The notes beneath the pieces were generated by a model. That model worked only from the letters and a program-made list of their open reading frames with translations. It did no database searches and was not told the origin of the DNA. A DNA stretch of 34,313 nt. It comes from a virus. Numbering within the stretch: position 1 is the stretch's first letter; the number at the start of each line of letters is the position of its first letter. Where the stretch lies: positions 1 to 34,313 of the IMG/VR virus record IMGVR_UViG_3300017726_000029, one strand, 5' to 3'. Positions 1 to 34,313 of this stretch are shown piece after piece. Both the position numbers and the translations under genes were made by a program.

Positions 1-46
1 AGGGGCTGTGCGCTTCGGGTCACTTGACCCTACTCCCTTGCGGGAT
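1..46. repeat. 46-bp terminal direct repeat (left copy)
   Basis: Bases 1-46 are identical to 34268-34313. An exact overlap of this size at both ends of a contig is the usual mark of a circular molecule, or a circularly permuted phage genome, cut at an arbitrary position. The unique circle is then 34267 bp. The overlap lies inside the capsid-gene intron and covers its P7.1, P7.2 and P3 3' strands, so it is not a dedicated terminal repeat at a gene boundary. Confidence 0.95.
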
Positions 47-176
47 AGTCGTTGCACCTTCCTCAATATGAGGCTTGGCTCAGGATTGCCCACGCCATCA
101 TGCGTTTGGGTATCCCCTGAGTTCACACAGTTCTTCATGTGCAGATTACTCTGCAATGGCCCTAGTGGTATGTATA
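1..176 (-). ncRNA. Group I intron, 5' part (P1 to P8 5' strand), in the major capsid gene
   Basis: Read on the minus strand, this begins at 176, just after exon base 177, and continues through base 1 into 34267. Helices that can be paired by eye: P1 (exon GCCU 180-177 with GGGC 162-159, giving the U-G pair at the splice site), P2 (155-150/145-140, GUAA loop), P3 (CUGUGUG 130-124 with CGCACAG 12-6), P4 (CUCAGG 121-116 with CCUGAG 84-79), P5 (about 110-107/92-89), P6/P6a (73-69/65-61), the P7 5' strand GACUAU (50-45), P7.1 (44-35, GCAA loop) and P7.2 (30-17). The string GGGCAAUCCUGAGCC is the classic group I Q-type core sequence. Two extra hairpins between P7 and P3 point to subgroup IA, the type common in phages. 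There is no internal ORF or homing endonuclease. Confidence 0.93.
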
Positions 177-1055
177 AGGCGTTACCATGGCGTCTTGGTT
201 GACGGACATCTTTGCTTCACCTGGAACGAAATCCCGTGACGCTGCTACCTCAAGACGGAGATAGTCAGTGTTCAGGAAATACATCCTGTTGGTGTTACAT
301 GCGGAATCAAAGACCACATCACTATTCAGATACTGAACGCTGGTGAAACCAGAGTTTGCCAGATCGTCACTGGTGATGCGCTGGATGGCCTGAAGGCTAC
401 CCAAGAACGCCTTGTAGGCATTGGTGCCAGCCATCACAAGGTCAGGGCTGTCAGCGCCACGAACCAGTTGCAGATAGATGTTGTTCATATCTGCCTGGAC
501 GTTTGAGGTGCTGAACGCGCTTGACGTTGCAGTGGTTTGGACGTTTTGCCAAAAGGTGTAGGTGCTTGAGTTAATCCCACCCACTGTGCCGGTGCCTGCA
601 TCAGCCACGATTAGCTGAAGACCACCAACCTCTTTACCAGATGAACCAGTGCCATCTGAATAGATTGATGTGGACAGGCTGTTCATCATCGACTTTTCAA
701 GCACATTGATGCGTGCCTCAAGCAGATTGATGATGGCCTCTGTGCCAGAGTTTTTGACTTGCTCCAAGCCAGAGATGGTGACGTTACCGGCAAGCTGCTT
801 ATACTCAAAGACAGCAGCAGACAGAACGTCTGATGGTGAGACATCAAGTGTCTCATAGCCTGAATAGAACTGCACAGTCCCATTGTCGGCATACTCAAGT
901 TCGCGGACAATATCCCGTCCTGTCACAGACGTTTGATTGCCATTCTCGCGTAGTCTACGCAGCAACGCATTGTGGTTGCTTACGTTGTCAGAAAGCGTCC
1001 GGCTACGATTCCGCAGCGTGGTCGTGACGATTTCTGAAAGATTAGGACTAGCCAT
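177..1055 (-). CDS. Major capsid protein, exon 1 (293 codons)
   Basis: This encodes the main head subunit of a short-tailed marine-type phage. The N-terminal region (VRELEYADNG, then YSGYETLDVSPSD) and the following helix-rich part match the capsid family I recognise from marine podovirus-like genomes. A good ribosome site (AGGAG, 7 nt upstream) precedes ATG 1055, and the scaffold gene ends 4 nt upstream. Without splicing, the frame runs 15 bases into the intron and stops at TAG 164-162, giving a 297-residue protein with an odd TYH ending that lacks the usual family C-terminus. Joining base 177 to 34176 gives ...DAMVTP plus MFWSGNLTCSN..., which restores the expected ending in a 313-residue protein. 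The splice-site choice rests on frame, the P1 pairing and this ending. Confidence 0.93.
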
Positions 1056-2150: not shown

Positions 2151-2162
2151 TTGTTTTGTCCT

Positions 2163-2369: not shown

Positions 2370-2581
2370 CTCATCAGCATCCCTGCCGCCACTTGGCGCA
2401 TCTGTGCATCCATCTTCCGGCGTGGCTTGTTGAAGGTGCCGATGGCCTGCATGATTTCTGGAAATATCTTGTTCATGACGCCAGCCAAAGGACTATCCAG
2501 CGCCTCGCGAATGATTTCTTTTTCTTGCTCTGACAGCGCCTGAAAGGCTTGGTCAGCGCGATCCATATCAATTTCAATCAT
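2366..2581 (-). CDS. Small hypothetical protein, head module
   Basis: This 71-residue, mostly helical protein (MIEIDMDRADQAFQALSEQEKEII...) has a basic stretch NKPRRKMDAQMRQ near the end. It overlaps both neighbours by 4 bases, so it belongs to a tightly coupled chain between the portal and scaffold genes. I do not recognise the family. No transmembrane segment or catalytic motif is visible. Confidence 0.7.
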   Translation of the reverse strand: MIEIDMDRADQAFQALSEQEKEIIREALDSPLAGVMNKIFPEIMQAIGTFNKPRRKMDAQMRQVAAGMLMR

Positions 2582-3546
2582 GTGAAGTCCGTTGGGTTGC
2601 CAAACAGGTTGAGATTTGGTGCGGCTTGGTCAGGCATGGTCATGTTCCGCGTTTGCAACAGATCGACCAAAGTGTTCGGCGCATATCCGTATGGCTGGAA
2701 CAGGTTGCCCGCGCCGCTATAGAGGTAATACGGGTTCCGCAGATAATTGATTGCCAGATCATCAATCTGTTCTGGTGTGGTGGTGCCGGGGTCAACTGCT
2801 GGTGGCGGGGCTGATGCCTGCATCATTTGCTGAGTTTCATCACCGCTTTGCACCTCATTCTGTCCAGCAGTGCCGCGCACCAAACCTTGAAAGGCACCTT
2901 CATAGTTTGGGTCATTGACGCCGCTGTAAACAACCCCACCAAACGGATTCATGCTGAGTGTACCCCGCCCAGCCTGTGCGCCAGAAACCAAGCCGGTTTG
3001 CGGGTCACGCACCGCGCCTGGTAAAGACATCAACTGCCCTACATTAAACGCAGCCGCGTCGGCTGGGTCTGGCTGGTTGGTTAGCCCACCAAGTATGCCG
3101 CCACTCAGTATAGAGCCAATGCCCGTACCCGGCGCTGTGCCGCCATATAGGTCATCATAAGCGTCTGCAAAAAACCCACTCATTGGGTCATTTCGCCCTG
3201 GCGCACGATTAACACGATCACGCGGCGCTGGGCGGTCTGGGTTTGCAAGCGAATCTTGTGCCGCTTGGTTAATTAGCTGACGTGCGAGATCAGCCTGAGA
3301 GTCGTCGGCTGGCGGTGGCGTTTGTCGTGACGCAAGCGATTGAGATGCAGCTTGCTCCACTAGATTGAATGGGTCAGGCGAAATCTGACGAGAATCATCA
3401 ATGACGTTAGTTGTGCCTCGAACCATTGGGCGTCCACGCGCATCTGTCTGCGCGGGAGTGGCGCTCTCGCGTGCATCGTCAGCCGCGCTGCTACCGCCAT
3501 CGCTCTTGTAGCAGATGCGGTTTTCAATCAAGTAACTGCGAACCAT
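2578..3546 (-). CDS. Low-complexity virion-module protein
   Basis: This 322-residue protein is rich in Ala, Pro, Asp and Gln with long stretches likely to be disordered. Glycine-rich segments (GTAPGTGIGSILSGGILGG) are followed by a C-terminal part with repeated Asn and Tyr (NYLRNPYYLYSGAGNLFQPYG). The start overlaps the end of the HlyC-like gene, and AGGGG lies just upstream of ATG 3546. I see no known enzyme motif. Its place between the portal and scaffold genes suggests a minor head or internal virion protein, possibly one that travels with the DNA. That is an inference from position only. Confidence 0.65.
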   Translation of the reverse strand: MVRSYLIENRICYKSDGGSSAADDARESATPAQTDARGRPMVRGTTNVIDDSRQISPDPFNLVEQAASQSLASRQTPPPADDSQADLARQLINQAAQDSLANPDRPAPRDRVNRAPGRNDPMSGFFADAYDDLYGGTAPGTGIGSILSGGILGGLTNQPDPADAAAFNVGQLMSLPGAVRDPQTGLVSGAQAGRGTLSMNPFGGVVYSGVNDPNYEGAFQGLVRGTAGQNEVQSGDETQQMMQASAPPPAVDPGTTTPEQIDDLAINYLRNPYYLYSGAGNLFQPYGYAPNTLVDLLQTRNMTMPDQAAPNLNLFGNPTDFT

Positions 3547-3929
3547 CCCTTGCCCCTGCTAATGCGGTTTGCGCGTCCCAAGACGCCTTGGCCAAATATT
3601 GAACGCAGATGGTCGCGGCCTTCTCTTACCATCTGCCGCACGCCGCCATAGGGCGCGAGAAAATCAATCAGCCACAGGTTTTCACCTGCCTGCCAATCAT
3701 CTGGCTGCAACAGCCTGGTGCCGTCCCAGTATCCCTGCTGTGCCTCTTCATTCAGCATGGCCCAGGTGACAAAGCCGACAGGATTGCCTTCAGCCTCCCA
3801 GATGCGGAATTGCTGCAAGGCAATCGGCGGCAGGATTAAGCGGTGGATGTCATCAACGGTGTAATCGCAATATTCATCCGACTGGCCCATCAGCCAGGTT
3901 ATTTTGCCGACTGCTTCAGTGTTCTTCAT
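3528..3929 (-). CDS. HlyC-family (RTX toxin lysine acyltransferase-like) protein
   Basis: This 133-residue protein aligns without gaps to the core of HlyC/CyaC toxin-activating acyltransferases. Shared elements are the opening ITWLMGQS (HlyC VSWLWASS), LILPPIALQQFRIW (NVLPAIQANQYVLL), NPVGFVTWAMLNEE, the DDWQAGENLWLIDF block and APYGG. HlyC transfers an acyl chain from ACP to toxin lysines using His23 and Asp92. Asp is kept here (D89), but the position matching His23 is Tyr20. The protein is also shorter than HlyC (about 170 residues), lacking much of the C-terminal part. No RTX toxin gene is present. It sits between the portal and head genes, and homologues occur in other marine phages at similar places, so a virion-linked role is likely. 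Whether it still acylates anything is unknown. Confidence 0.85.
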   Translation of the reverse strand: MKNTEAVGKITWLMGQSDEYCDYTVDDIHRLILPPIALQQFRIWEAEGNPVGFVTWAMLNEEAQQGYWDGTRLLQPDDWQAGENLWLIDFLAPYGGVRQMVREGRDHLRSIFGQGVLGRANRISRGKGWFAVT

Positions 3930-12999: not shown

Positions 13000-13253
13000 T
13001 GACTTGCCTTCCAAGACGACTCAATGGTGATTGCTTTATGGATGCCTTTGAGACGACCTGATGCTTGCGGAAATTTTAAGGCAAACTGTTCTGCCAGATG
13101 TTCTTGCAAAGCAGGCTCACCCTTGTTGAACGCACAATCCACGATGTCCTCTGCCATCGTCGTATTGTCTGTTTTTAAGGTGAGCTTGTAATGAATTTCC
13201 TCACCATCAATCGGGCAAGCAGAAATGAAGCTGAGTTTATATGTGTGCTTCAT
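12996..13253 (-). CDS. Small protein with possible T-fold (QueD-like) resemblance
   Basis: This 85-residue protein lies between the transporter and the DpdA-like gene and overlaps both. By eye, FISACPIDGEEIHYKLTLKT, then PALQEHLAEQFALKFP, then HKAITIESSW resemble the strand, helix and strand order of QueD (6-carboxytetrahydropterin synthase) and related T-fold enzymes. It is shorter, and the zinc-binding histidines of QueD are absent. If the likeness is real, it would be a non-catalytic or altered T-fold subunit. Otherwise it is an unknown partner of the base-modification genes. A structure prediction would settle the fold. Confidence 0.5.
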   Translation of the reverse strand: MKHTYKLSFISACPIDGEEIHYKLTLKTDNTTMAEDIVDCAFNKGEPALQEHLAEQFALKFPQASGRLKGIHKAITIESSWKASQ

Positions 13254-13725
13254 GCTTGCGCCTCTGTAGCAAGTACATCACAACAAAAGCACCGACCATT
13301 TTGCTAAGCGTCATCAGCACGACGCCACCAATGCTGAAGTAGCCAATCATTGCAAGGAAGACAGCGCTATCAAGCGGGGTGCCAACCGCCGACGAGATCA
13401 CAATGCGCTGGTGCAAAGGCCGTTTTGACCAGGTGTAAACCAGCCAGTCAGCAGTCTCGCTAATTAAGAAGGCAACTACCGATGCGACCGCCACAAACGG
13501 ATCTGCTAAGTAGTAGCTCAACAATGCGCCGATCAGCATTGCCCCGATCACTCGATGGCCTATTTCACGCTGGCTGAAGTCCCTCAGTACGAAAATCAGG
13601 CCAACCAATAGCGACATCGGTGGCCACATTTCACCTAAAAGCGGCATCGGCGGCACATAAACAAAGCCGATATTCACAGCTAAGATGCAAGCCACATAGG
13701 CAATAGAATACTTGTATGCGTTCAT
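13237..13725 (-). CDS. Queuosine precursor transporter (YhhQ/VUT family)
   Basis: This 162-residue integral membrane protein starts at ATG 13725 behind a purine-rich GAGGGAGAAGA site and overlaps the previous stop (ATGA). About five hydrophobic helices are visible (SIAYVACILAVNIGFVYV, SLLVGLIFVL, ALLSYYLADPFVAVASVVAF and two near the C-terminus). Family marks are VLRDFSQREIGHRVI, the SETADWLVYTW segment and SSAVGTPLDSAVFL. YhhQ proteins import preQ0/preQ1, the 7-deazaguanine precursors of queuosine. A phage copy beside a DpdA-like gene suggests it feeds DNA modification by salvage. E. coli YhhQ is longer (about 220 residues), but short phage versions are known. Substrate is inferred from family and context. 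Confidence 0.82.
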   Translation of the reverse strand: MNAYKYSIAYVACILAVNIGFVYVPPMPLLGEMWPPMSLLVGLIFVLRDFSQREIGHRVIGAMLIGALLSYYLADPFVAVASVVAFLISETADWLVYTWSKRPLHQRIVISSAVGTPLDSAVFLAMIGYFSIGGVVLMTLSKMVGAFVVMYLLQRRKHEAHI

Positions 13726-13967
13726 TCTTCTTCTCCCTCTGTTAATTCGACATATCCCTGGCCATGGCACACCGGACATTCGCCATGGCGCGTGTCTATG
13801 AACCCGCTGCCAGTGCGATAGTCTGGCACCGCATATTCAACCTCACACTCGCCCTGCCCCTCGCAATGGCCACACTCTGGCAGTTCTTCCCAAAGGCCAG
13901 GCACCCTGCAAATGCGAACTAGCCGCGGCGGTATCTCACTGAAGCCCCTAGCCACCTTCGGCCTCAC
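13722..13967 (-). CDS. DnaJ-type zinc-finger protein
   Basis: This 81-residue protein has two CxxCxGxG-type repeats (CGHCEGQG and CPVCHGQG), the repeat that builds the zinc module of DnaJ, separated by about 25 residues. It has no J domain. The start given is GTG 13967; GTG 13955, with GAGG upstream, is an alternative. It ends in an acidic tail (LTEGEEE) that overlaps the transporter start. Small free-standing proteins of this type are common in phages, with unknown roles; protein or nucleic-acid binding is expected. Confidence 0.75.
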   Translation of the reverse strand: MRPKVARGFSEIPPRLVRICRVPGLWEELPECGHCEGQGECEVEYAVPDYRTGSGFIDTRHGECPVCHGQGYVELTEGEEE

Positions 13968-23322: not shown

Positions 23323-24608
23323 TAGGCATCCCCCTCATAAATTTCAAATGTGCCGGTGATGCCGTTGAAATATAAATCCCCGTTTTTCAATTCACCGTTT
23401 TCAACAGCCGCGTCATACTCTCCGTCCGTCATGTACGCTTGTAAGGCTGGCGGCACGTTCTCATCTGCAAATTCTGCAAATCCAATCAAACTGTTATTTT
23501 TCTTGGCGAATTTTTCCATCGCTTTCAAAATATCTGCTCGACGCTGTACAAGTGCTTGCATTGATTTCACCAAGGCTTTGTTTGCCTCTGGCGTGTTGCT
23601 CATATTAGCAGTGGCACTTGAAAACAATCGGGCTTCAAAGTCGGATGTTGCCCCCGATCCGACCACTCTCATGCGTGGAATTATAAAGTTGAACGCCGCT
23701 GTCAAAACTTGTTGGTTGTTTAAATCGCGGATTTGCTCATCGTTTAAAAATCCAAATTCCTTTCCAAGGTTTCTGATGGGCATCGTTATATTGGTAATTG
23801 GCCCTGTTTCGGTGCCAATCTCAAGCAATTGATCGGCAATATTTAGCCTTGTGATCAAATCAGACTCGCTTTGCACTTGTTTACTCAAGTCCTCTATTCG
23901 TTTGGCTGCTGACGTTGCAGCGGCTTTCATGAACTCTGATTGCTGTTCGTTGCCCATCGCAATGGTTGGGTTGACTGAAACGGACGTGCCACCGCCTTGT
24001 CGCTCCACATAACCGGCATCAATCAAGGTTTGTGTTTTTGCGGCAAATTGCGGGTCAGTGCTTAAAATTGATTGTACGTCTGACGGGTCATTCGGATTCA
24101 CAAAATTAAACACATCCGGCTTTGCTGGCGCACGGCGCTGCACGGGGTTGCCAAGTGAACTGCTGGTGGCTCCCGTCAATGGATTAGTCGTGGTTGTTTC
24201 AACCGCTGAAAAGTCGCCTAGGTTTGTTATTTGTGAGGTGGTTGTTGGCGCGAACTGTGCGGTCAGTAATGCTGGCATAGCCGCTGATGGATTGGCAGCA
24301 ACAGCAGCGCGAACACCTGGAGCCACATTCGGCCCCAGCATTCCCATGATCTGATTTGTCATTTCAGTCTCACGCTCGACTTGTGCATCACCAGCCTTGC
24401 GCTGTAGGTATGCGCCCACCAGTGCGCTAGACAGCCTGCCAAGCCCTTGTAAGGGCGTCCTAACAGGCGCAGAACTTGCACCCTGCCCCATCAGCGCTTG
24501 GCCAAGGATGCGCCGCGGATCGGACTGATACGCCTGATTAAGCTGCTGAAACTGCATTGACGGGCGTTGGCCTGGTTGCATCAGACCGTGGAATGGTGTG
24601 TGTGCCAT
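23322..24608 (-). CDS. Internal virion protein, putative
   Basis: This 428-residue protein has a Gln/Pro-rich start (QPGQRPSMQFQQLNQAYQ), a Thr-rich linker and a long helical region (AAATSAAKRIEDLSKQVQSESDLITRL). It ends with a small strand-rich part (DGEYDAAVENGELKNGDLYF) resembling the short repeats at the C-termini of phage internal proteins. It is coupled to the gene before and after. Position and build suggest ejection-protein status; no enzyme motif is visible. Confidence 0.7.
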   Translation of the reverse strand: MAHTPFHGLMQPGQRPSMQFQQLNQAYQSDPRRILGQALMGQGASSAPVRTPLQGLGRLSSALVGAYLQRKAGDAQVERETEMTNQIMGMLGPNVAPGVRAAVAANPSAAMPALLTAQFAPTTTSQITNLGDFSAVETTTTNPLTGATSSSLGNPVQRRAPAKPDVFNFVNPNDPSDVQSILSTDPQFAAKTQTLIDAGYVERQGGGTSVSVNPTIAMGNEQQSEFMKAAATSAAKRIEDLSKQVQSESDLITRLNIADQLLEIGTETGPITNITMPIRNLGKEFGFLNDEQIRDLNNQQVLTAAFNFIIPRMRVVGSGATSDFEARLFSSATANMSNTPEANKALVKSMQALVQRRADILKAMEKFAKKNNSLIGFAEFADENVPPALQAYMTDGEYDAAVENGELKNGDLYFNGITGTFEIYEGDA

Positions 24609-24611
24609 CGT

Positions 24612-25784
24612 CTACCTCAACAAGTAAGCTGCGCCAAGATTGCCAGCCAATCCGAAAAGTCCGCCAAGATTTGCTGAACGATTTTGCATCGCCTGTGAAT
24701 AGGCGTTCTGCTGCGCCGCCATCTGTGCGCCAAACGCACCCTGCGTATCGACGCCGCCAGGTGCAAAGAAGCTGCCTTGTTGGATTTGTGGGCCACCCAG
24801 CAGTGCTGCCAGTTCGTTGAAGTTTTGACCGCGCAGCGCATTGCGCTCTGCAATTTGGCGACTGCGTGCTTGATTAGCGATCTGGTTTGACAGCAGTTGA
24901 TTGGCCACAGTGTCTTGGCGTGCCGCGTTGGCAAGCTGCGTGTTAGCAGCCGCTTGACTAAAGCCTTGGCCCTGCGCCGCCAGTCCAAACTCACCGCTGG
25001 CCGCACGCTCACCAAACTGCTGCGCTCTGATGTTACGTGCCTGGTTGACCAGCCGGTCAGATTCCTGCCCTGCCGCCAGTGTCGCCTGCTGTGCCAGACG
25101 CCCTAGCTGTTCGCCTTGCTGTGTCTCAAGACGGTTCACAGCGTCATTGTAGCCTTGTGATGTTATGGGAATGCCACGATCTGCGAGGTTCTGTTCAAGC
25201 GCCTCACGCTGCTGGGTAAACTCTGGCTGCAACAGCCCTAGCTGCCGATTGAACAGTGTTTGCTCAATGTTGCTGCGAAACGCCACTGGATCGCTCTGTA
25301 GGGCTGTCAAACCGGCAGTGTCAATGCTTGTAGGCATTGGCGTGGTCGTGCTGATCTGGCTTTGGAACGCAGGCAGGCCGGTAGTCGGGTCAATGTCTTG
25401 CGCCTGCTGCACGCCAGCCAATGTCGGGGCCGTTCTGAACGGGTTCTGGAAATCAGGGTCGTCAGCAAAAATCGGTGAGCCATCAGGGTTCTGGCCGATG
25501 ACTTGTCGGCCTGTCACACGGTTGAATGCCAGATTGCCCAGCCCCAGGCCGGTGCCTTCAGTCGCCGCACGCAACTGTGCCTGAAACGGTGTTTCTTGGG
25601 TGAACGCTGCCGCTTGTCCATCGTCCGGCACTGGACCCTGAACAAACTGCCCCTGATCGCCCACAGATCCGAACAGCAGATTGCCATACGGCGTAAACTG
25701 AGTGATGCGATTTGCATTGCTTTGAGCGTTGATCAGTTCGTTTGGATCAGGAACTGGTGGTGGTGAAGGCGCTGACTTGCCCAT
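24612..25784 (-). CDS. Internal virion protein, Gln/Ala-rich
   Basis: This 390-residue protein begins MGKSAPSPPPVPDPNELINA, an opening I recognise from podovirus internal or tail-needle-region proteins. It then runs as Gln- and Ala-rich helices (QQREALEQNLADRGIPITSQ and similar) that could form a coiled coil. The C-terminus ends in a hydrophobic stretch (NLGGLFGLAGNLGAAYLL). It overlaps the GNAT gene upstream by 38 bases. It probably travels with DNA in the ejection assembly. Confidence 0.75.
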   Translation of the reverse strand: MGKSAPSPPPVPDPNELINAQSNANRITQFTPYGNLLFGSVGDQGQFVQGPVPDDGQAAAFTQETPFQAQLRAATEGTGLGLGNLAFNRVTGRQVIGQNPDGSPIFADDPDFQNPFRTAPTLAGVQQAQDIDPTTGLPAFQSQISTTTPMPTSIDTAGLTALQSDPVAFRSNIEQTLFNRQLGLLQPEFTQQREALEQNLADRGIPITSQGYNDAVNRLETQQGEQLGRLAQQATLAAGQESDRLVNQARNIRAQQFGERAASGEFGLAAQGQGFSQAAANTQLANAARQDTVANQLLSNQIANQARSRQIAERNALRGQNFNELAALLGGPQIQQGSFFAPGGVDTQGAFGAQMAAQQNAYSQAMQNRSANLGGLFGLAGNLGAAYLLR

Positions 25785-26199
25785 TACTTTGACCCTTTAT
25801 CCATTTACATTCATCCCTCAACATGCCCCACAGAATGCCATCATCTGGCCCATGCAGATGCCGCAGCCTGCCCTCTTGCGTAAAGCCTAGCTGCCTGTTC
25901 ATCTTCATTGCCTTGGCGTTGGCCTCGCTGCACTGCACTAGCAGCCGGTGCGCCCCGACTTGTTTGAACGGATAGGCGAACAATGTATGCAGGACAGATC
26001 GGGACGCCCAGCGCCGGGAGGAAGCAGCTATAGACGCCTCGATCTGCCCTTCTCTCAAGTCATGGTAAATGGCGGCGCAAATGATCTGATCGTCACGCTG
26101 CACACCAATCGCCACGCTTGGCCCAAACTGGTTGATGCCAATGCGCTTTGCTGCCCATGATTTTAGATAGTCGTCTGCGCCAAAAATGATGCGGTTCAA
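25747..26199 (-). CDS. GNAT-family acetyltransferase
   Basis: This 150-residue protein has the GNAT order of elements: an early strand and helix, IICAAIYHDLREGQIEASIA (strands 2 to 4), a helix with HTLFAYPFKQVGAHRLLVQCSE, and NAKAMKMNRQLGFTQEGRLR (strand 5 region). Similar proteins are common among phage internal-virion genes. It overlaps neighbouring genes on both sides. The target is unknown; acetylation of a host protein, a virion protein or an antibiotic-like compound cannot be told apart. Confidence 0.88.
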   Translation of the reverse strand: MNRIIFGADDYLKSWAAKRIGINQFGPSVAIGVQRDDQIICAAIYHDLREGQIEASIAASSRRWASRSVLHTLFAYPFKQVGAHRLLVQCSEANAKAMKMNRQLGFTQEGRLRHLHGPDDGILWGMLRDECKWIKGQSNGQVSAFTTTSS

Positions 26200-26891
26200 T
26201 TTTGGCTGTCCCTGATGCCTTTTAACGTCTCGTAAATGTCAGGCGGTGGCGGCTGGTCAATGTCCCACTGGCACAGGTATTCGCGTGGCCGGAACTCACG
26301 CGGCGAGAACATCATGGTTTCTTGTGTGTTGTGAGCGCCCCTATAGACGCACGCTGTGGTGTCCTTGTCGATCTTCATACACTTGACCAAGCGGCAGACC
26401 GTCAGGTCGTTTGCTGCCTGCGCTGTGTGCGCCTTGAGCAGCAGAACAAAGGCTGTCAGAACAGCCAAGCCAGCGCCGATTGTGATTGTCCAGGCAACGA
26501 TCTCAATGAACTTGCGACGGCTTTCACGCTGCGCGTATAGCGTTTCCTGCCGTTTCTTCCGTATGCGTCCCTCAAGCCGAATCAAATCGTCAACAGCAGA
26601 CTTGCCCAAGGTCAGCCCGATGTAATTTAACAACTCGCGTCTGTCGCTTTCCGCTTTGCGCTTGGCCGCGAACACTTGAATGGCTTCTGCTTCAACCGAC
26701 TGTCCACCAAAAAGCTTTTTGAAAATCGGCGGGTTCTTGGCCTCGCGCTCAAGCTGGTCAAGGTCACTGACACAAGAAACCCACTTCGACACGCTGCCGA
26801 TCATTTGCTCAAGTTCCTGACCCGCCATGATAGCTTTGCGGACGGCTGAATAAGCAGTAGCAGCGCCAGCAGCAATCGTGACTGGGTCCAT
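26196..26891 (-). CDS. Virion-module membrane protein
   Basis: This 231-residue protein is read from ATG 26891 behind GAGGG; the frame stays open to 26990. It opens MDPVTIAAGAATAYSAVRKA, then EQMIGSVSKWVS and a Lys/Glu-rich helix. One transmembrane segment (IVAWTITIGAGLAVLTAFVLLL) is followed by a Cys-containing C-terminal domain likely outside the cytoplasm. I recognise this architecture from marine phages, where it is a conserved hypothetical near the tail genes. Its role is unknown. It starts inside the previous stop (overlapping at 26891). Confidence 0.78.
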   Translation of the reverse strand: MDPVTIAAGAATAYSAVRKAIMAGQELEQMIGSVSKWVSCVSDLDQLEREAKNPPIFKKLFGGQSVEAEAIQVFAAKRKAESDRRELLNYIGLTLGKSAVDDLIRLEGRIRKKRQETLYAQRESRRKFIEIVAWTITIGAGLAVLTAFVLLLKAHTAQAANDLTVCRLVKCMKIDKDTTACVYRGAHNTQETMMFSPREFRPREYLCQWDIDQPPPPDIYETLKGIRDSQN

Positions 26892-27070
26892 TAGTACACC
26901 CTCACTTGTTCTGGATTGACATATTTGGGCAGGCAGTACGATGTCAGGTTCTTTCCCTGGCGGCTTATACGCACAGAGAAAAAAAGACACTCATCAAGAT
27001 TTCTGAAATACAGATCGTTTGAAACCAGCCTGCCGTCCAGAAACACGAACAGCAGAAAAGCGTGGATCAC
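26891..27070 (-). CDS. Small exported or membrane-linked protein, GTG start
   Basis: This 59-residue frame starts at GTG 27070, overlapping the previous stop (GTGA). It encodes MIHAFLLFVFLDGRLVSNDL, then FRNLDECLFFSVRISRQG, then KYVNPEQVRVY. The hydrophobic N-terminus followed by an NLDECLFF...CLPKYVNP pattern is one I recall from small marine phage proteins beside tail genes. The reading frame is open upstream to 27169, but the GTG start fits the gene chain best. Confidence 0.7.
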   Translation of the reverse strand: MIHAFLLFVFLDGRLVSNDLYFRNLDECLFFSVRISRQGKNLTSYCLPKYVNPEQVRVY

Positions 27071-27237
27071 TGCCCCAGCAAAACGCCTACAAGCAGGACA
27101 ATGGTTGTGCCAGCAGTGCCAATCATGATGTGTTCGATGCGCTTGATCCGCAGGATGGTTTCTTTCCACCGCTCAGCGCACACTGCCTCATGTGTATCTA
27201 TCTGGGCCTGTACAGATGCGGCTGTGGGCTTGCTCAT
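27067..27237 (-). CDS. Small anchored protein with N-terminal coiled coil
   Basis: This 56-residue frame begins at ATG 27237. It has a helical N-terminus (VQAQIDTHEAVCAERWKETIL) and a C-terminal transmembrane helix (IMIGTAGTTIVLLVGVLLGQ). This is the layout of XhlA-like or Rz-accessory small phage proteins. It overlaps neighbours by 1 and 4 bases. A membrane role in lysis or entry is possible. Confidence 0.75.
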   Translation of the reverse strand: MSKPTAASVQAQIDTHEAVCAERWKETILRIKRIEHIMIGTAGTTIVLLVGVLLGQ

Positions 27238-27422
27238 CAGTCAGCATCCTGAATGGTCAGCAGTCCTTCCGACTGCTGTCGCATGATTTCGTCGTAGTGG
27301 CGGTTGCCGGGGGCCAGCGGCACCCATATCTTATCTCCAGCTACAACAATCTCTATTGATGCGTTTTCAGACGTATCTGCATCTGCGATGTATTTAGCTG
27401 ACGTGATATTTAATTCACCCAT
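27237..27422 (-). CDS. Small tail-fibre-linked protein
   Basis: This 61-residue protein contains ITSAKYIADADTSENASIEI and VPLAPGNRHYDEIMRQQSEG, ending LTIQDAD. I recognise the pattern SIxxxxxGxxxxVPxxPGNRHYxEIxRQ as a small protein encoded next to phage fibres. It may help fibre folding or assembly. It overlaps the next gene by one base and lies two bases after the fibre stop. Confidence 0.8.
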   Translation of the reverse strand: MGELNITSAKYIADADTSENASIEIVVAGDKIWVPLAPGNRHYDEIMRQQSEGLLTIQDAD

Positions 27423-27424
27423 AA

Positions 27425-28501
27425 TTACAACTCCGCATCGGAAATAATCGTAGAGGTGTTTGTGCCGTCTGCCTGTAACTGCCCAACACTACTCGTTATA
27501 GAAGATGTTGCTACAATCGCACGTAAGCTATGCGTGGTTTGCCTGTCAAACGTGAAAGAGGTGTGGGTGTTGTTGCCAGTATCTACCCTAAAAGTTCCGG
27601 TGATGCTGTTAGACGGCGCTGCCCTCATTGTTGTAATGTGAGGAATAGTGAAATACGAAACATTACTATCCACCAGACCACCACCAGCAAAGACTCCATA
27701 ATTAACGCCCTCACTAGACCGCACTTGGCAGTACCTCTGTGCTTTCTGAAGCGTGACCGAATAGGGTTCATGCTCGAACGGCGTGGCCTGTTCGCCAACC
27801 TCAAGCTGGACGCCGGTGATGTACCATTCGTTGCTGGTGCTGTCGGCAAGGTTGACCACACCAGCCGCACGGTTTGCGTTGGTAGTGTGCCAGCTTGTTC
27901 CGATTGAACCAGATGAAAAGGTAGAGCCAGCAGCACACCAAAAATTCATATTCAGACCCTGACCGTTATCGTTATTGATTGTGCCGCTTACGTCACCGGG
28001 AAAAGTGAGGGTCTTGTATTCCCAAGTATTTGCCGCATCAATCGTATAAGTCTTGCTATATAAGCGACCAGAATCGGGCTGGCGTAACTCAAGAACGTAT
28101 GTGCCTGTCTTGTTAGACTTAACGTAAAAAGAAGCGGTAACAGTCTTTGCGGAGGAGTCGCCGTACCTCAAATGCTGTACGTTCTGCGCCTCAATCTTTG
28201 TCTCCACGATTACAAAATCACTTGCGCCAAGAGAAGCATCTGCTGTGGTGCAGTCAATTCTGAAAGAGTTGCTAAAGCCGTCTGGTGCATCTGTTGACTG
28301 AGTAACTGTCCACGTTCCCGCTGGGCCGAAAGGTGAAAACATAAAACGGTCACAGGTGCGGTATCCACCAGATGTTATGCCAGTGACACTCGTACCCCGC
28401 TGCGCCACGCGCATACATCCCCCAATGACAAGATTCTTGCCGGTAATGCCACCAGCATCAGCCGAACCGGCGAGGTCCGCGAAATCTCTTGCTCTGCTCA
28501 T
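27425..28501 (-). CDS. Tail fibre or receptor-binding protein
   Basis: This 358-residue protein has an N-terminal linker (MSRARDFADLAGSADAGGIT) of the kind that attaches fibres. The beta-rich body resembles a carbohydrate-binding module (TASFYVKSNKTGTYVLELRQ, then YKTLTFPGDVSG and WYITGVQLEVGEQATPFE). The QLEVGxxATPFE motif is frequent in phage fibres. The variable C-terminal ~100 residues probably contact the receptor. The gene overlaps the S74 fibre gene by four bases, so the two may form one complex. Confidence 0.87.
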   Translation of the reverse strand: MSRARDFADLAGSADAGGITGKNLVIGGCMRVAQRGTSVTGITSGGYRTCDRFMFSPFGPAGTWTVTQSTDAPDGFSNSFRIDCTTADASLGASDFVIVETKIEAQNVQHLRYGDSSAKTVTASFYVKSNKTGTYVLELRQPDSGRLYSKTYTIDAANTWEYKTLTFPGDVSGTINNDNGQGLNMNFWCAAGSTFSSGSIGTSWHTTNANRAAGVVNLADSTSNEWYITGVQLEVGEQATPFEHEPYSVTLQKAQRYCQVRSSEGVNYGVFAGGGLVDSNVSYFTIPHITTMRAAPSNSITGTFRVDTGNNTHTSFTFDRQTTHSLRAIVATSSITSSVGQLQADGTNTSTIISDAEL

Positions 28502-29574
28502 GATGCGTTCTCCAGTGCGGTCAGTCGGGCCTCAAGGTCGGTAATTGTCGCATTTTGCTCTTGAATTGCTTTAGTCAACACAGCCACAAGTTTTTCATAA
28601 TTAACGCCACCAGCAACCAAAGCTGTGTCGGCCTCATCGCCACTAAATACACTTTCTGCGACGAGCGGGACGAACTCTGGCATAACGCTAGAAACTTCAT
28701 CAGCAACAAAGCCAATCTCTAACTTATCGCCGTCATCATTGCGATTGTATTGTCTTGGCTGTAACTGCAAAATTTCTGATAGGCCATAAGAACAATCAAC
28801 AATATTGTCTTTCACCTGTCTTGCAGATGTGTCAAATGTTATGGCACCAGTAGAGGCGTTCCATTTCAAAGGATAGGTTCCCGCACCACTAGCAATGCCA
28901 GAATATTTCCAGTTACCATTGCTTTCGATACGCATACGTTCTGTGCCATTTGTCGCAAAAAGCATAGGATGATTCGTTCTGCCATCAATTGCCACAGCAC
29001 CCACTGCTGCTTTTATTTCAATGGCTGTGCTGTCAGTTGAGTCATCTAGCCTTATGGTTGAAATGCCTGCTCTTTCAATCTCCAAACCAGAACCGCTACC
29101 GAATGTTGGCGAAGTCGTCCCGATGCCCACGTTGCCCGACGCAACAATCGTGTCGCCTGTCCCATCCGGGTCGAGGGTGATGTCGCCATTCGTGTTAGTG
29201 CTGCTGATGGTGTTGCCGTCGATGCGGATGTTGTCCACGTTAAGCAACGCATTGACAGTCACATTTCCGCTGAACGTACCGCCTGACGACGCAGACACAG
29301 TGTCAGCCACAGTGAAGCTCTTGAAGGCATAGATGTTCACAAGACTGCCAGTCGCTGCGCCAGTGGCCAGCACGACGCTGGTGCCGTTGGTGGCTGTAAA
29401 GTCAGACGGGTCGAGAACAATACCGTTCATTACCACTTGCAGGTTGTCTGCCGTATATGACAAGGTGGCGCTGTTGTCGTCAGAGCCGCTGAACGTGGTC
29501 TGCCCAGAGGTGGCTGTGTATTCGTACAGTATCAGGCTGACAAGCCGATTTGGGTCAACACCGATGTAAGCCAT
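28498..29574 (-). CDS. Tail fibre with C-terminal peptidase S74 chaperone domain
   Basis: This 358-residue protein from ATG 29574 (GGAG upstream) has an attachment domain (residues 1-90), then repeated beta strands (TFSGNVTVNALLNVDNIRID and NVGIGTTSP). The C-terminal intramolecular chaperone starts near 245: SARQVKDNI gives the catalytic Ser250 and Lys255 with the five-residue spacing seen in endosialidase S74 domains. LQPRQYN and EIGFVADEV follow. The chaperone trimerises the fibre and then cuts itself off. The last part (ILTKAIQEQNATITDLEARL in essence) is a trimeric coiled coil. Confidence 0.92.
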   Translation of the reverse strand: MAYIGVDPNRLVSLILYEYTATSGQTTFSGSDDNSATLSYTADNLQVVMNGIVLDPSDFTATNGTSVVLATGAATGSLVNIYAFKSFTVADTVSASSGGTFSGNVTVNALLNVDNIRIDGNTISSTNTNGDITLDPDGTGDTIVASGNVGIGTTSPTFGSGSGLEIERAGISTIRLDDSTDSTAIEIKAAVGAVAIDGRTNHPMLFATNGTERMRIESNGNWKYSGIASGAGTYPLKWNASTGAITFDTSARQVKDNIVDCSYGLSEILQLQPRQYNRNDDGDKLEIGFVADEVSSVMPEFVPLVAESVFSGDEADTALVAGGVNYEKLVAVLTKAIQEQNATITDLEARLTALENAS

Positions 29575-29933
29575 TAGGTGATCTCCATAATCGTCATCGA
29601 CACGCTGACTTTGTCGGCAACTGAGCAATCAATCTGGATTTTGTCGGTTGTCTCAAGCACGACCTTGTTGCCACTTAGAAATTCCAAACTGGACCCCACA
29701 GGAATGGGTGCGTCTTTCAACAAAAACGTTGTGGTATTTGTCGCAGCCCTGCCGCCGCCAGATGTGTCGCTGACCAGCTTCACACTGGCCGTCACCTGGC
29801 TCGTGTGTACGTTGGCAAGCACCATGCCCAGCACGATGGTGGTGGTGCTGCCAGGCGTGGTGTAAAGGTCTTCAGGCGTGCCAGAACTGGCTGGCATCAC
29901 ATCATGTGACACCACTTTGAATGTGTTAGCCAT
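29574..29933 (-). CDS. Small structural protein (tail region)
   Basis: This 119-residue beta-rich protein (MANTFKVVSHDVMPASSGTP, then TTIVLGMVLANVHTSQVTAS, then SLEFLSGNKVVLETTDKIQI) matches a conserved marine phage virion protein encoded before fibres. Such proteins often form the base or collar to which fibres attach. The role is inferred from location. It overlaps the next gene by one base. Confidence 0.8.
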   Translation of the reverse strand: MANTFKVVSHDVMPASSGTPEDLYTTPGSTTTIVLGMVLANVHTSQVTASVKLVSDTSGGGRAATNTTTFLLKDAPIPVGSSLEFLSGNKVVLETTDKIQIDCSVADKVSVSMTIMEIT

Positions 29934-29945
29934 TCGTTTTCTCCT

Positions 29946-30884
29946 TTAGCCCAAGGCTATCGCTAACGCGGTGGCCTCGTTGGCCGCCTCATTGGCTGTA
30001 GTGGCACCGATATCCGACAACACTTCTGATGCAGACCGTCCTTCAATAGCCGTGCCAGCCACACGCAGGAAATCATCATCAGTCACGCCGCTGGTGAATT
30101 TTGGAACATTGTTGTTAGATATGCCTGTGTCCAACGTGGCTGTGGCTGTGATGGCTGTGCCGTTCAGCGTCATGGCATCGGCTTCGAGCGTGCCGTCAAT
30201 GTCGGCATCGCCGCTAATGTCCAGTGACCCAGCGTCCAACTCGCCGGTCAGAGTCACGTTGCGGAAACTGGCAATGTCCTTGTTGCTGTCAACGATTACA
30301 GCCTTGGATGCTGCTACCGTGCCTGCTGTAACGCCGTCAATCGCCTCTAACTCAGCCTCGCTGATGACAGCGCCAGATCCTAGCGTCAGATCACCGCCGA
30401 CAGTCAGATTGCCTGCAACAGCCGTTGTGCTGCTGGCGACAGTGCTATTTGGCGTGTGGGTGAGGTAGCTGACAAAGCTGCCGCTGATCTTGCTTCCAAG
30501 CGTCAGCACGCCGCCGTCAGCGATGTTCAGCTTGTGCTGGTCTGCATTGTCGTCGCCCTGGTCAGCCTTCAGCACGATGCCAAGTGCCGCGCCCTCTACA
30601 TTGGCTGCAATCTCAAGGCTGTCGTTTGTGCTTTCATCATACTGAATGGTGATGTCACTATTTGTGCCAAGAACGATGGTCTTGTTGTCAGGCACAGTCA
30701 GACCTTCTGCAAACGGGATTGCAGCAGTGCATGTCTGTGTGCCGTCTTTAAGTATGCAAGTGGACAGGCCCGTTGCGAACCCGTCTAGTTCTGTGTCGAA
30801 CTTGGATGCAAGGATTTTGACGCCATTGTCACGATCTGTCGTGCAGTCAAATGTGCGTGAAAACGTACCGCCGCTGAATGCCAT
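29946..30884 (-). CDS. Virion fibre-like protein with repeated beta motifs
   Basis: This 312-residue protein starts MAFSGGTFSRTFDCTTDRDN and continues with Thr/Asn/Gly-rich repeats (GNLTVGGDLTLGSGAVISEA, LDAGSLDISGDADIDGTLEA) typical of beta-helical fibre shafts. The end is helical (ATTANEAANEATALAIALG). It is probably a tail spike or fibre shaft; no enzyme motif was seen. It shares its first base with the stop of the hub gene. Confidence 0.82.
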   Translation of the reverse strand: MAFSGGTFSRTFDCTTDRDNGVKILASKFDTELDGFATGLSTCILKDGTQTCTAAIPFAEGLTVPDNKTIVLGTNSDITIQYDESTNDSLEIAANVEGAALGIVLKADQGDDNADQHKLNIADGGVLTLGSKISGSFVSYLTHTPNSTVASSTTAVAGNLTVGGDLTLGSGAVISEAELEAIDGVTAGTVAASKAVIVDSNKDIASFRNVTLTGELDAGSLDISGDADIDGTLEADAMTLNGTAITATATLDTGISNNNVPKFTSGVTDDDFLRVAGTAIEGRSASEVLSDIGATTANEAANEATALAIALG

Positions 30885-32428
30885 TAGAGTGGCCCTCCTG
30901 GTGCGAATGTATAGTGAGCGCTGATGAACGAGATTGTCTGCGTGCTGGTTGCAACCTTGATCCGCAATGCACTGGAGTAGCCTAGCCGGTTGACCGCCTT
31001 GCGCCGCTTGGTAACGCCAGCGCCAGCCGTGTCAGCATAGAAAAAGTCATCATAGGTGGCGGTATCCCACGCTGCCAGATTTGATTGAAAGGTCACAGGC
31101 GAGACATCAATCGCCGCAACGGGTGACTGATCAACGCCTACGCCGAAACTGAACACAACGTCTGTTTCACCCTCAAGCATGGGCTGCACGCTACTGAAGC
31201 GCTTCACACCGCCTCTGTCGCCGAAATAATTGTAGGCCGTAGCCAGATCACCAACAATGTTTTCGCCATTATCAGCATCACCAGTCACCTTGAATACAAC
31301 GCCGGATGCGCTGCCAAAAAACGTATCGCCATTGAACTGGCCCCAGACATGGGCTGGCAAATTTTCAAAAATGCACCACGCCCTGATAATCGGGTTGAAC
31401 ACATGCTGGTTGAAAGGGTCAGGCTCACCAGTTGGGTAGTTGAAATAGACCTTGTCACCGTCAGGGCTAACAAAGACTTGCCAGCCGGTTGATGTGCCGG
31501 TGGCCTTGACCTGACTGATGACGGTGCCGCGGATCTTCTCTGAAATGGCTGCTGCCTTGTTGCCCACAATGTCCTGGCGCACGACCTGGCTCAAAGGCAA
31601 ATAGCCCTCTTTGGTCATCACGATGACATCGCCGCCCAGCTTGGCAATGGCGCGTTTTTCATTGATCGGCTCTGCAATCCGAAACGTACCAACCAAGCTG
31701 AAATCACTGGCAGGGTTAGAACCTGAATATAGCAGCACCTCGCCGCTGGTCATTATGATGCACAGAAGGTCATCAACGCCCTCACCGCCATCAATGGTGA
31801 GCGTGTTTATCATAATGATGTTGCCGCCAAATGTGCCGACCAAGCCGACAGGGAACTTGGTAAAGTTGCCCTGAAAGGTGTCAACGGTGGCGCTGTGGTA
31901 AAAGTTCTGGCTGTCGCCAGTCCAGTAATAGACGCGGTTTTTGTGCGCGTGTACGCCGGTCAGCGTGTTTGCGTTGACGCTATCAGACAGCGTGATCGAC
32001 AAATCGCTGGCGCTTGACCCGTCCCAGCTAAAAGGCACGTTCGCCCCTGACGGCACAAAGATGGTGTGGTTGTTGAACTCAATGCTTTCTGCCCTGCCGT
32101 TGGCAAGGCCGGTTTTCTTGCTGACGGCTGTCCCGCTGTCAATCTGGTACAGCGTGCCGTTGCTGCCGATTGCCAAAAGCTGCCGGTTTGCGCCAGCATT
32201 GTGTTCCACCAGTGTTTCAACATTGCCTGTGCCAATCCCTGTGCAAAAACTGGTGTAGCCGTCGCGCAGGGTGACTTTCTCCACAGTCGGGAAAAAGTTG
32301 GACATGATCAGTGCGTCAGTCGGTGCCATTGCATCAATGCTGTCACGGCTGTTCAGACCACCCACAGGGGCTGGCACGCTGACCGCCTTGACGCGGTAGC
32401 CTCTGGAAGTTGGCAGCGCTTGCAGCAT
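30884..32428 (-). CDS. Tail stabilisation / hub protein (P22 gp10-like)
   Basis: This 514-residue protein is beta-rich with propeller-like repeats (NRQLLAIGSNGTLYQIDSGT, GVVFKVTGDAD and others). The N-terminal PAPVGGLNSRDSIDAMAPTD and NFFPTVEKVTLRDGYTSF are marks I associate with phage stabilisation proteins that close the head-tail connector, like P22 gp10 or the T7 nozzle. It follows the adaptor gene with a one-base overlap. The exact family needs a profile search. Confidence 0.8.
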   Translation of the reverse strand: MLQALPTSRGYRVKAVSVPAPVGGLNSRDSIDAMAPTDALIMSNFFPTVEKVTLRDGYTSFCTGIGTGNVETLVEHNAGANRQLLAIGSNGTLYQIDSGTAVSKKTGLANGRAESIEFNNHTIFVPSGANVPFSWDGSSASDLSITLSDSVNANTLTGVHAHKNRVYYWTGDSQNFYHSATVDTFQGNFTKFPVGLVGTFGGNIIMINTLTIDGGEGVDDLLCIIMTSGEVLLYSGSNPASDFSLVGTFRIAEPINEKRAIAKLGGDVIVMTKEGYLPLSQVVRQDIVGNKAAAISEKIRGTVISQVKATGTSTGWQVFVSPDGDKVYFNYPTGEPDPFNQHVFNPIIRAWCIFENLPAHVWGQFNGDTFFGSASGVVFKVTGDADNGENIVGDLATAYNYFGDRGGVKRFSSVQPMLEGETDVVFSFGVGVDQSPVAAIDVSPVTFQSNLAAWDTATYDDFFYADTAGAGVTKRRKAVNRLGYSSALRIKVATSTQTISFISAHYTFAPGGPL

Positions 32429-33147
32429 CAGACGGCCCCGTATCCGCTGTCAGGCAGATTGTAGCTGTATGGGCTGACCAGCAGGCGTCTGGCATCATCC
32501 AGACTGATGACCGGCGCACCGCCTGCGCGGCTGATGGCCTGCCGCAATTCAAGCTGGTACTGCCTGAAATCCTCATCATATGTCAGGCCGTGGTTCTGCT
32601 TGAAACGCCAGGTGACGCCCATCTCAATCAGTGTTTCATCAAGGATGCCAACATCTGTATCTGCTGCCATGGCGGCTTGTGAGGTGCCGCCGCTGCTTTG
32701 ATTCCAATGGCTGCTGACATACTCAAAGCCGATGCTTTCGGCTGATGTTGGTGTTGGCGTGATGTCAAACTTCAGAACATTGCTGGAAGGCTTGAAGCGG
32801 AACTTTTGCGTGATGCCTGCGCTGGCTGTGCCATACCGATCCTGCTGGAACTGCTGGGGCGTTATAGGCCCGACCATCTGATCCAGATCGGTGCGGTTAT
32901 ACATGGTGCTGCCCACAGATCGGTCATAATCAGTCGGCAGATCGTAACTCTGTGTGCCGTTGACCGTGTTGAAAGTGTGTTCCTTCAGCAGCACCGGCCA
33001 GTTGTTTGAGCGCATCAGTTGCTTGCCCTCACGGTTTATGAAGGCAAATAGCTGGCGTGCAATGGGGTCTGTGTTGCCAACAACGGTTGACGGACGTTCA
33101 AACCCTGTAAAGTCAGCTACTGCTTGGGCTATCGTCAGCAGGCTCAT
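32428..33147 (-). CDS. Head-tail adaptor protein (P22 gp4-like)
   Basis: This 239-residue protein from ATG 33147 (GAGG upstream) lies before the hub gene. Motifs: IAQAVADFTGFERPSTVVGN, LFAFINREGKQLMRSNNWPV, SYDLPTDYDRSVGSTMYN and GVTWRFKQNHGLTYDEDFRQ. This is the usual pattern of the short-tailed phage adaptor or tail tubular A protein that extends the portal. The frame is open to 33192, but the upstream bases overlap the preceding gene. Confidence 0.87.
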   Translation of the reverse strand: MSLLTIAQAVADFTGFERPSTVVGNTDPIARQLFAFINREGKQLMRSNNWPVLLKEHTFNTVNGTQSYDLPTDYDRSVGSTMYNRTDLDQMVGPITPQQFQQDRYGTASAGITQKFRFKPSSNVLKFDITPTPTSAESIGFEYVSSHWNQSSGGTSQAAMAADTDVGILDETLIEMGVTWRFKQNHGLTYDEDFRQYQLELRQAISRAGGAPVISLDDARRLLVSPYSYNLPDSGYGAV

Positions 33148-33562
33148 CTGGCACCTCTGTCTTGGTTTTTGCAGCAGCCACCTCTTTAACAAGTGATGCC
33201 TTCTGCTTGTCAGCAGCCACTTGCAGGCTGGCTATCTTGGCCAGTTCCACATACGGCTCACCGATGTTTCTAAGGGTTGTTTCTTCAGCAGCGGCAAGCT
33301 GCTCAACAGTTTCAATGTCGTTCAATTCCAACTCACAGCGGCGCGGCTCAGTCATGCCTGGTAATTCTGTGAGCGCCTTGCCCTTGGGCTTTTTCTTCTT
33401 CGCCTTCTTCTTATAAGCGGCCCAGTCGTCTGGAAAACGTGCGATATCTTCAGGCCGAACCGGCCCTTCCCACACATCGCGCACGCCAGCAATGGAAATG
33501 CGGCAAAAGTCACGCATGTCGCCATTAAGTTCGCGCGGAAAAAAAGTGCCTTTAACAGACAT
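33113..33562 (-). CDS. Head-module protein with helix-hairpin-helix-like repeat
   Basis: This 149-residue protein has a short N-terminal domain (GTFFPRELNGDMRDFCRISI, then RPEDIARFPDDWAAYKKKAK). A Lys-rich linker and a helical region follow (ELPGMTEPRRCELELNDIET and VEQLAAAEETTLRNIGEPYV) that resembles a helix-hairpin-helix/SAM-like unit (LPG...GIxTVEQLA). It lies between the decoration and adaptor genes and overlaps the latter. Related proteins are known in phage head modules, without defined function. Confidence 0.75.
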   Translation of the reverse strand: MSVKGTFFPRELNGDMRDFCRISIAGVRDVWEGPVRPEDIARFPDDWAAYKKKAKKKKPKGKALTELPGMTEPRRCELELNDIETVEQLAAAEETTLRNIGEPYVELAKIASLQVAADKQKASLVKEVAAAKTKTEVPDEPADDSPSSS

Positions 33563-33581
33563 TATAAAACTCCCGTTTGTT

Positions 33582-33617
33582 CAAAAAGAATGGGGGCAAG
33601 GCCGTCGCCCTGCCCCC
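33582..33617 (-). terminator. Intrinsic terminator after the decoration gene
   Basis: On the minus strand a 9- to 10-bp GC stem (GGGGGCA...TGCCCCC, hairpin 33617-33592) is followed by ATTCTTTTTG. It could separate the highly expressed capsid and decoration genes from the lower-demand connector genes. Confidence 0.7.
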
Positions 33618-33624
33618 TTTGTGC

Positions 33625-34098
33625 TTACAGTGGGAATGTGCAGATAATTTCCTTATCTGAAATATCCCCAGCAATAGCGCAGATGTTATCGGTGGCTGCT
33701 GATGCAACATCTAGTGTGCCATCAGCGCTGCCTGTTGGTGTCAACGGATCACCGTCAGCACCAGCCGTGAGCGCAATGGTCAGCGTTGCTACTCCAGTCA
33801 CCTGGAACCAGCCATATTGACCATCCGTCATTACTGCCTGAATTACACCCGCGCCGACCTCTACGGAATCGGACAGATCGCTAGTGGCCTTAAAGGTCTT
33901 GTAGCCATCATTTGTGTAATAATAGGCAACCTCACCAGCGACAGCCGCCGTACCAGCAGAACCAGTATCATACTGAAGATACTTATACATTCTGGTGCCA
34001 TTGGTGTCGTCAATGATCGCACCAAGCTGACCCAACTGAAACTCAGGAGTGTCAGCGACTGCTGTAGGGTCAATACCCATTACTGCTGCAATAGCCAT
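33625..34098 (-). CDS. Capsid decoration protein, putative
   Basis: This 157-residue beta-rich, acidic protein (MAIAAVMGIDPTAVADTPEF, then GTRMYKYLQYD and GEVAYYYTNDGYKTFKATSD) is encoded directly after the capsid gene, with a strong AGGAGA site. Composition and place are those of head decoration or cement proteins that bind the capsid shell. The C-terminus ends DISDKEIICTFPL. It is followed by a terminator. Confidence 0.8.
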   Translation of the reverse strand: MAIAAVMGIDPTAVADTPEFQLGQLGAIIDDTNGTRMYKYLQYDTGSAGTAAVAGEVAYYYTNDGYKTFKATSDLSDSVEVGAGVIQAVMTDGQYGWFQVTGVATLTIALTAGADGDPLTPTGSADGTLDVASAATDNICAIAGDISDKEIICTFPL

Positions 34099-34113
34099 AA
34101 CAGTTCTCCTTTC

Positions 34114-34176
34114 TTATGTATGGATCACGCCTTGGAGAGCGCGGTTTGAACAGGTCAGATTTCCTGACCAGAACAT
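34114..34176 (-). CDS. Major capsid protein, exon 2 (20 codons plus stop)
   Basis: Reading from 34176 on the minus strand gives MFWSGNLTCSNRALQGVIHT and then TAA (34116-34114). The pattern W(A/S)GNLTCSN-R-LQGV is the standard C-terminus of this capsid family and is missing from exon 1. Joining 177 to 34176 keeps the frame. The intron's last base is then G (34177), as group I introns require. This short piece would be missed by any gene caller and, on the linear contig, lies at the far end from exon 1. Confidence 0.9.
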   Translation of the reverse strand: MFWSGNLTCSNRALQGVIHT

Positions 34177-34313
34177 CGTGATGTTCGCCTTGGTTCGTTA
34201 GGCCAAGACCGCCTTGCGGCTGCTTATGCTTTCACATAAGACCAGACTATATCATCACCCTGATTACAGGGGCTGTGCGCTTCGGGTCACTTGACCCTAC
34301 TCCCTTGCGGGAT
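34177..34313 (-). ncRNA. Group I intron, 3' part (P8 to P9, 3' splice site)
   Basis: On the circle this continues from base 1 at 34267; 34268-34313 duplicates 1-46. P8 is CCCUG (4-1 and 34267) with CAGGG (34262-34258) around a UAAU loop. The P7 3' strand AUAGUC (34250-34245), within the S-type string GAUAUAGUC, pairs perfectly with GACUAU at 50-45. P9 is the CUUAUG/CAUAAG hairpin near 34240-34222, followed by a CCGC/GCGG hairpin and a CUUGG/CCAAG hairpin. The terminal G is 34177. The total intron length is 267 nt on the circle. Confidence 0.92.
34268..34313. repeat. 46-bp terminal direct repeat (right copy)
   Basis: This is identical to bases 1-46 and joins the contig into a circle. The duplicated piece belongs to the intron P7.1, P7.2 and P3 strands and should be counted once. 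Confidence 0.95.

Follow-up and report, generated by a model that had tools for sequence, protein, structure and literature searches.

Capsid gene introns, and several introns per capsid gene, have already been published in phages. The capsid gene of LittleE, a mycobacteriophage of Cluster J, contains an 820 bp intron with an endonuclease frame, which is spliced in infected cells, and the intron of the BAKA tail gene, from the same cluster, is 265 bp long, has no ORF, and splices (PMC3706429). In a crAss-like phage of the Zeta group, the major capsid protein (MCP) gene is distributed over five fragments (PMC7886860). Twort orf142 has three introns, and Bastillevirinae have introns in their DNA polymerase genes (up to three) and terminase genes, with a mean intron length of about 802 nt (PMC11878797).

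The window studied here, i.e. the whole 34,313-nt stretch of DNA that was analysed, is a temperate, marine-type tailed phage of about 34.3 kb. Its minus-strand ORF 1055..162 hits the major head protein family PHROG 9953 (E 8.9e-90). To judge from sequence comparisons, this capsid gene is very probably interrupted after codon 293 by an ORF-less, 267-nt group I intron of the td type, whose excision would restore a 313-residue protein. The features concerned are listed below, together with one protein match from the structural gene region; a slash marks a splice site, here and in the text.

177..1055, minus strand: exon 1 of the major capsid gene (PHROG 9953), 293 codons ending in ...GTAACGCCT; splice position set from intron-less relatives and intron extraction.
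1..176, minus strand: 5' part of the predicted group I intron, running from the 3' strand of P1 past the 5' strand of P7; partial match to RF00028.
34177..34313, minus strand: 3' part of the predicted intron (34177-34267) and second copy of the 46-bp repeat; partial match to RF00028.
34114..34176, minus strand: exon 2 of the capsid gene, 63 nt, 20 codons and a stop, encoding MFWSGNLTCSNRALQGVIHT.
1..46, no strand: terminal direct repeat, left copy, inside the intron core; point at which the assembly of a circular or permuted genome closes.
34268..34313, no strand: terminal direct repeat, right copy, identical to 1-46.
175..180, minus strand: predicted P1 5' strand, GCCU/UA across the 5' splice site, from the minimum-free-energy fold; last exon base U at 177.
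159..164, minus strand: putative internal guide sequence UAGGGC, pairing with GCCU/UA, with a U.G pair at the splice site; from the minimum-free-energy fold and inspection.
46..50, minus strand: predicted P7 5' strand GACUA, from compensatory changes in related introns.
34245..34249, minus strand: predicted P7 3' strand UAGUC, from compensatory changes in related introns.
3531..3929, minus strand: protein with a Pfam hit to HlyC, the RTX toxin acyltransferase family (E 9.3e-34), located among the structural genes.

Elsewhere in the window, a match to Vut_1 (putative vitamin uptake transporter) was observed at 13240-13779 on the minus strand, possibly an auxiliary gene carried by the phage.

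Read in spliced order on the minus strand, the gene runs from 1055 to 177, through the intron (176..1, then 34267..34177, 267 nt in all), and then from 34176 to 34114. Over this last segment exon 2 reads ATGTTCTGG...CATACATAA, exactly 63 nt, so that the first-pass annotation, which had placed a hidden 20-codon second exon at 34114-34176 at the far end of the contig, had its coordinates right; its distance from exon 1, however, only reflects where the circular assembly was opened. The truncated 297-residue capsid protein predicted by the same annotation is indeed present as the unspliced frame 1055..162, made of 293 genuine codons followed by YTYH and a stop (C-terminus MVTPYTYH). The split is real, but exon 1 ends at 177 and not at the 297-codon stop. 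The spliced frame encodes a 313-residue major capsid protein ending in ...SNRALQGVIHT, with TPMFWSGNL as exon junction residues, ...GTAACGCCT-ATGTTCTGG... as the junction at the nucleotide level, and TPMFWSGNLTCSNR as a peptide that would mark the spliced product. An AlphaFold model of an intron-less capsid protein (L001, 13 sequences) had a mean pLDDT of 37, too low for placing the last 20 residues within the structure, and a search among sequences of solved structures gave weak matches to major capsid proteins only, the best being 7f38 (E 2.6e-05).

We fetched 80 capsid relatives from IMG/VR, all of them metagenomic assemblies. An uninterrupted capsid frame reached ...TPMFWSGNLTCSNRALQGVIHT, or a near variant, in 76 of the 80, and in these the 20 residues encoded by exon 2 followed ...TP directly in a single frame, with few changes. 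Their recurrence in so many independently fetched relatives shows that exon 2 is not a chance frame. The capsid gene of intron-less relatives is in one piece of 311-313 aa, and the protein spliced in silico equals theirs, the junction falling inside a continuous alignment: excision would give a continuous product. Among the 4 other relatives, one contig (L017) ends too early, and three (L023, L053 and L062) stop early like the window, around 295-297. In each of these three, the sequence just downstream is a group I intron and, after it, the same exon 2; capsid genes stopping at the end of exon 1 without the C-terminus were not encountered among the relatives. The earlier reading of a split capsid gene is therefore supported. 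When homologues from alphaproteobacteria were aligned (44-48% identity to the first sequence), P293, W296, G298, S303, N304, R305, A306, Q308 and G309 were invariant. A prophage search of bacterial genomes returned only alphaproteobacterial loci of 42-46% identity, in which the capsid tail was conserved.

On primary sequence and predicted fold, the intervening 267-nt element is very probably a group I intron with the architecture of a working ribozyme, and it would be self-splicing. Against the Rfam model RF00028 (Intron_gpI, gathering threshold 50 bits), fragment 6-130 of the window matched model positions 50-157 (E 9.8e-07, 33.3 bits) and fragment 34223-34313 matched positions 193-253 (22.2 bits), both halves remaining below threshold because the contig ends cut the intron. 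The contiguous homologue in L104 gave a full-length match of 71.4 bits; contiguous introns identical or nearly identical to that of the window were found in L053, L087 and L104, and 17 matches of at least 50 bits were obtained in 8 loci. The minimum-free-energy fold of the exon-intron-exon sequence of the window recovered P1 (z = -3.5). Across 13 related capsid introns from six positions, standard pairs occupied 99.1% of the pair cells, versus 77% in shuffles, double-sided changes were found in 37 of 52 pairs, and the covariation score was matched by no shuffle. P7 itself covaries, as GACUA with UAGUC, GACCA with UGGUC and GAUCA with UGAUC (C-G to U-A, U-A to C-G). The window intron ends in ...ATCACG, with a terminal G, and every occupied allele has T as last exon base and G as last intron base; at site 293, the T before the splice is conserved in 18/18 occupied alleles. 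Window-type introns have a GAACAT-CACG-ATGTTC hairpin across the 3' splice site (window 34171-34186, minus strand), which is missing from L081-type copies, ending GGTAACG/ATGTTC.

We propose that an ORF-less, 267-nt group I intron of the T4 td type interrupts the capsid gene after codon 293, and that the transcript would fold into P1 (exon GCCU with guide UAGGGC), P2-P9 and a P3/P7 core. The intron would then excise itself and join exon 1 to the 20-codon exon 2, giving the 313-residue capsid protein; without splicing, translation would end four codons past the 5' splice site, and the protein would not have its conserved C-terminus. The intron is polymorphic among close relatives, and would be an optional one, spreading between capsid alleles by a putative route discussed below.

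Among relatives, group I introns were found at nt 40, 153, 177, 405, 473, 640, 868 and 879 of the spliced capsid gene, i.e. at codons 13, 51, 59, 135, 157-158, 213, 289 and 293, respectively. The site in the window belongs to this set of at least eight used in the group, a wider picture absent from the first-pass annotation. With boundaries set by anchored patterns, we extracted 32 distinct capsid introns, all of 205-281 nt and ORF-less; read in frame from exon 1, every one of them stops within 0-11 codons. Their distribution is patchy, with up to three introns detected per capsid gene: L081 and L086 have introns at nt 40, 640 and 879, L082 at 40, 153 and 879, L090 at 473, 640 and 879, L096 at 177, 473 and 879, L153 at 40, 473 and 640, and L154 at 40, 177 and 473. 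For site 293 (nt 879), 48 contigs were selected by exon 2 alone; 15 were occupied (12 with the intron spanned, plus L091, L099 and L151, in which intron sequence directly precedes exon 2), and 33 were empty. Both empty and occupied alleles occur among close relatives, as for mobile introns.

The 205-nt insertion at codon 59 does not contain the ATATAGTC string, and was considered as a possible unrelated element; this was rejected, its score against RF00028 being 51.5 bits, above the Rfam threshold. Window proteins were not matched in most of the other contigs with the core motif (L108-L147). In L061, another group I intron, of 82.7 bits, at 3514-3766, interrupts the gene that follows the capsid gene, a homologue of the 157-aa ORF of the window (33625-34098).

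How do these introns pass between alleles at one site? One route would be homologous recombination, copying the intron and its flanking exon into empty alleles of the same site, perhaps set off by a trans-acting endonuclease (collaborative homing). On the exon tree, carriers are scattered: at site 293, 10 carriers required 9 changes (mean of 9.6 with shuffled labels), and at nt 177, 5 carriers required 5 changes, no better than shuffled labels. This tree was built from capsid exons only, with site-flanking bases removed, and recombination within exons would also scatter labels on it. In addition, occupied alleles share distinctive synonymous bases beside the site. At nt 879, all 18 occupied alleles read CGCCT/ATGT and most empty ones CCA/ or CCG/, a synonymous difference, and at positions 40, 868, 879 and 177 the last exon base of empty alleles is usually not T. 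Such a target pattern is compatible with introns entering the rare alleles that match and then spreading along with a short piece of exon, or with a later adaptation of the exon to the guide. Co-conversion is the known signature left by td homing (PMC2988022), and an ORF-less intron served by an endonuclease in trans has been described (PMC3984707). The window intron (267 nt without ORF) encodes no homing endonuclease of its own. Against this route, no family of such endonucleases was found in a Pfam scan of 29 of the window proteins, and exon differences, as a sign of co-conversion, showed no clear excess next to the site, apart from site 40 and the last bases. Overall, we give recombination between alleles an even chance of being the route.

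A second question is how new positions are reached. Near-identical 205-nt introns are located at codon 59 in L085, L093, L096, L154 and L176, and at codon 135 in L170. The codon 59 copy of L085 and the codon 135 copy of L170 are identical at 201 of 205 positions (98.0%), so that the L085 copy is closer to that of L170 than to those at its own site in L096 (94.1%) and L154 (92.2%). The sequence at both sites is CGGT/ACAG, an 8-mer present at no other position in 126 capsid alleles; written as RNA, the target of this intron is CGGTACAG. The codon 59 position of L170 itself is empty, and long codon-59-derived flanking tracts were not seen around its codon 135 copy. By sequence, this pair looks like a recent ectopic transposition; a short-read misassembly is unlikely, as it would need two exact misjoins, with some four shared bases on each side. 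Shared targets and similarity were also found between introns at codons 51 and 157-158 (CCGT/, 73% identical), and among those at codons 213, 289 and 293 (GCCT/, 55-67% identical).

These observations are those expected if introns reach new positions by reverse splicing at guide matches, followed by reverse transcription and recombination back into DNA. In rDNA, patterns like that of codons 59 and 135 have been taken as circumstantial support for reverse splicing (PMC3984707, PMC1299323), although direct experimental support for this route of spread is lacking, according to a review. However, no group I intron can function at a new site unless the exon there matches, so that a shared target alone is no proof; moreover, there is one near-identical pair only, and DNA-level routes could also have produced it. 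We hold reverse splicing to be possible, with somewhat less than even confidence. It may tentatively be suggested that small, endonuclease-free introns are still moving within the capsid gene by this means, which would make these phages a natural system for RNA-level transposition.

Two other explanations concern the window itself. In the first, the element, a dead intron or some other insertion, is not excised, the 297-residue capsid protein is functional, and exon 2 is a mere remnant. In line with this, the frame stays open without splicing and stops four codons past exon 1, but exon 2 is still an intact 20-codon frame with conserved residues, compensatory changes preserve the intron helices, and the residues lost without splicing are invariant down to 44% identity; we consider it very unlikely.

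The second bears on the contig ends. The first and last 46 bases of the window are identical (1-46 = 34268-34313) and this repeat lies within the intron. The ends are physically adjacent, since another metagenome record (L087), 99.99% identical to 24117-34313 (10.2 kb), runs through the junction and the intron into window 224..1, and L085, L093, L094 and L104 have the same gene order across it, at 92-95% identity. The repeat is therefore where a circular or permuted assembly closes; the contig was opened within the intron, which left one P7 strand near each end. With these five contigs at hand, an assembly artefact, with ends wrongly brought together or an exon 2 taken from a different phage, is extremely improbable, even if the repeat is only 46 bp long, the same core 46-mer is present in the introns of many relatives and could in principle misjoin, and several of their contigs end in or near the intron.

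Returning to the spliced capsid gene, automatic gene calling would yield a truncated capsid protein for the window and a more fragmented one for relatives; when these phages are surveyed or placed in trees by their capsid genes, such genes will be missed or broken up. In phage C72C1 (L102, OQ984150.1), two "major head protein" CDS are annotated at 2652-3853, around an unrecognised group I intron core similar to that of the window; spurious small ORFs are annotated inside this intron. We also observed that DSS3_VP1 (L103, MN602266.1) has two "putative terminase large subunit" CDS at 1643-3663, likely a split gene, with a group I intron core matching that of the window at the end of the first one.

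Compared with known systems, the window intron is of the td type. Its core is identical at 75 of 101 positions to the td intron core in the thymidylate synthase gene of the T4-like phage L098. It shares with the T4 td intron (subgroup IA2) the ACGACTATCCC...GGGAGTAGGGTCAAGTGAC stretch and ATATAGTC in the core, the U at the end of exon 1 and the G at the end of the intron; td, however, encodes the homing endonuclease I-TevI and sits in the thymidylate synthase gene, whereas the window intron is a capsid gene intron of 267 nt without ORF. LittleE likewise has a group I type intron in its major capsid gene, but with an endonuclease frame, in another phage and at another site, and the BAKA intron is similarly small (265 bp) and free of endonuclease, but in a tail gene of another phage. 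As many as three group I introns per gene are also known from Twort and the Bastillevirinae, in other genes and other phages. In the crAss-like Zeta group, one major capsid gene also has several introns, but these contain endonuclease-type domains and belong to large gut phages, whereas the group described here has small ORF-less introns at eight alternative positions, with empty alleles among near-identical phages. Multi-position, ORF-less, polymorphic introns in one capsid gene were not found in the openly licensed papers searched. Beyond a single intron, it is this intron-dense capsid gene, together with a likely recent transposition within it, that is more unusual, and of moderate interest.
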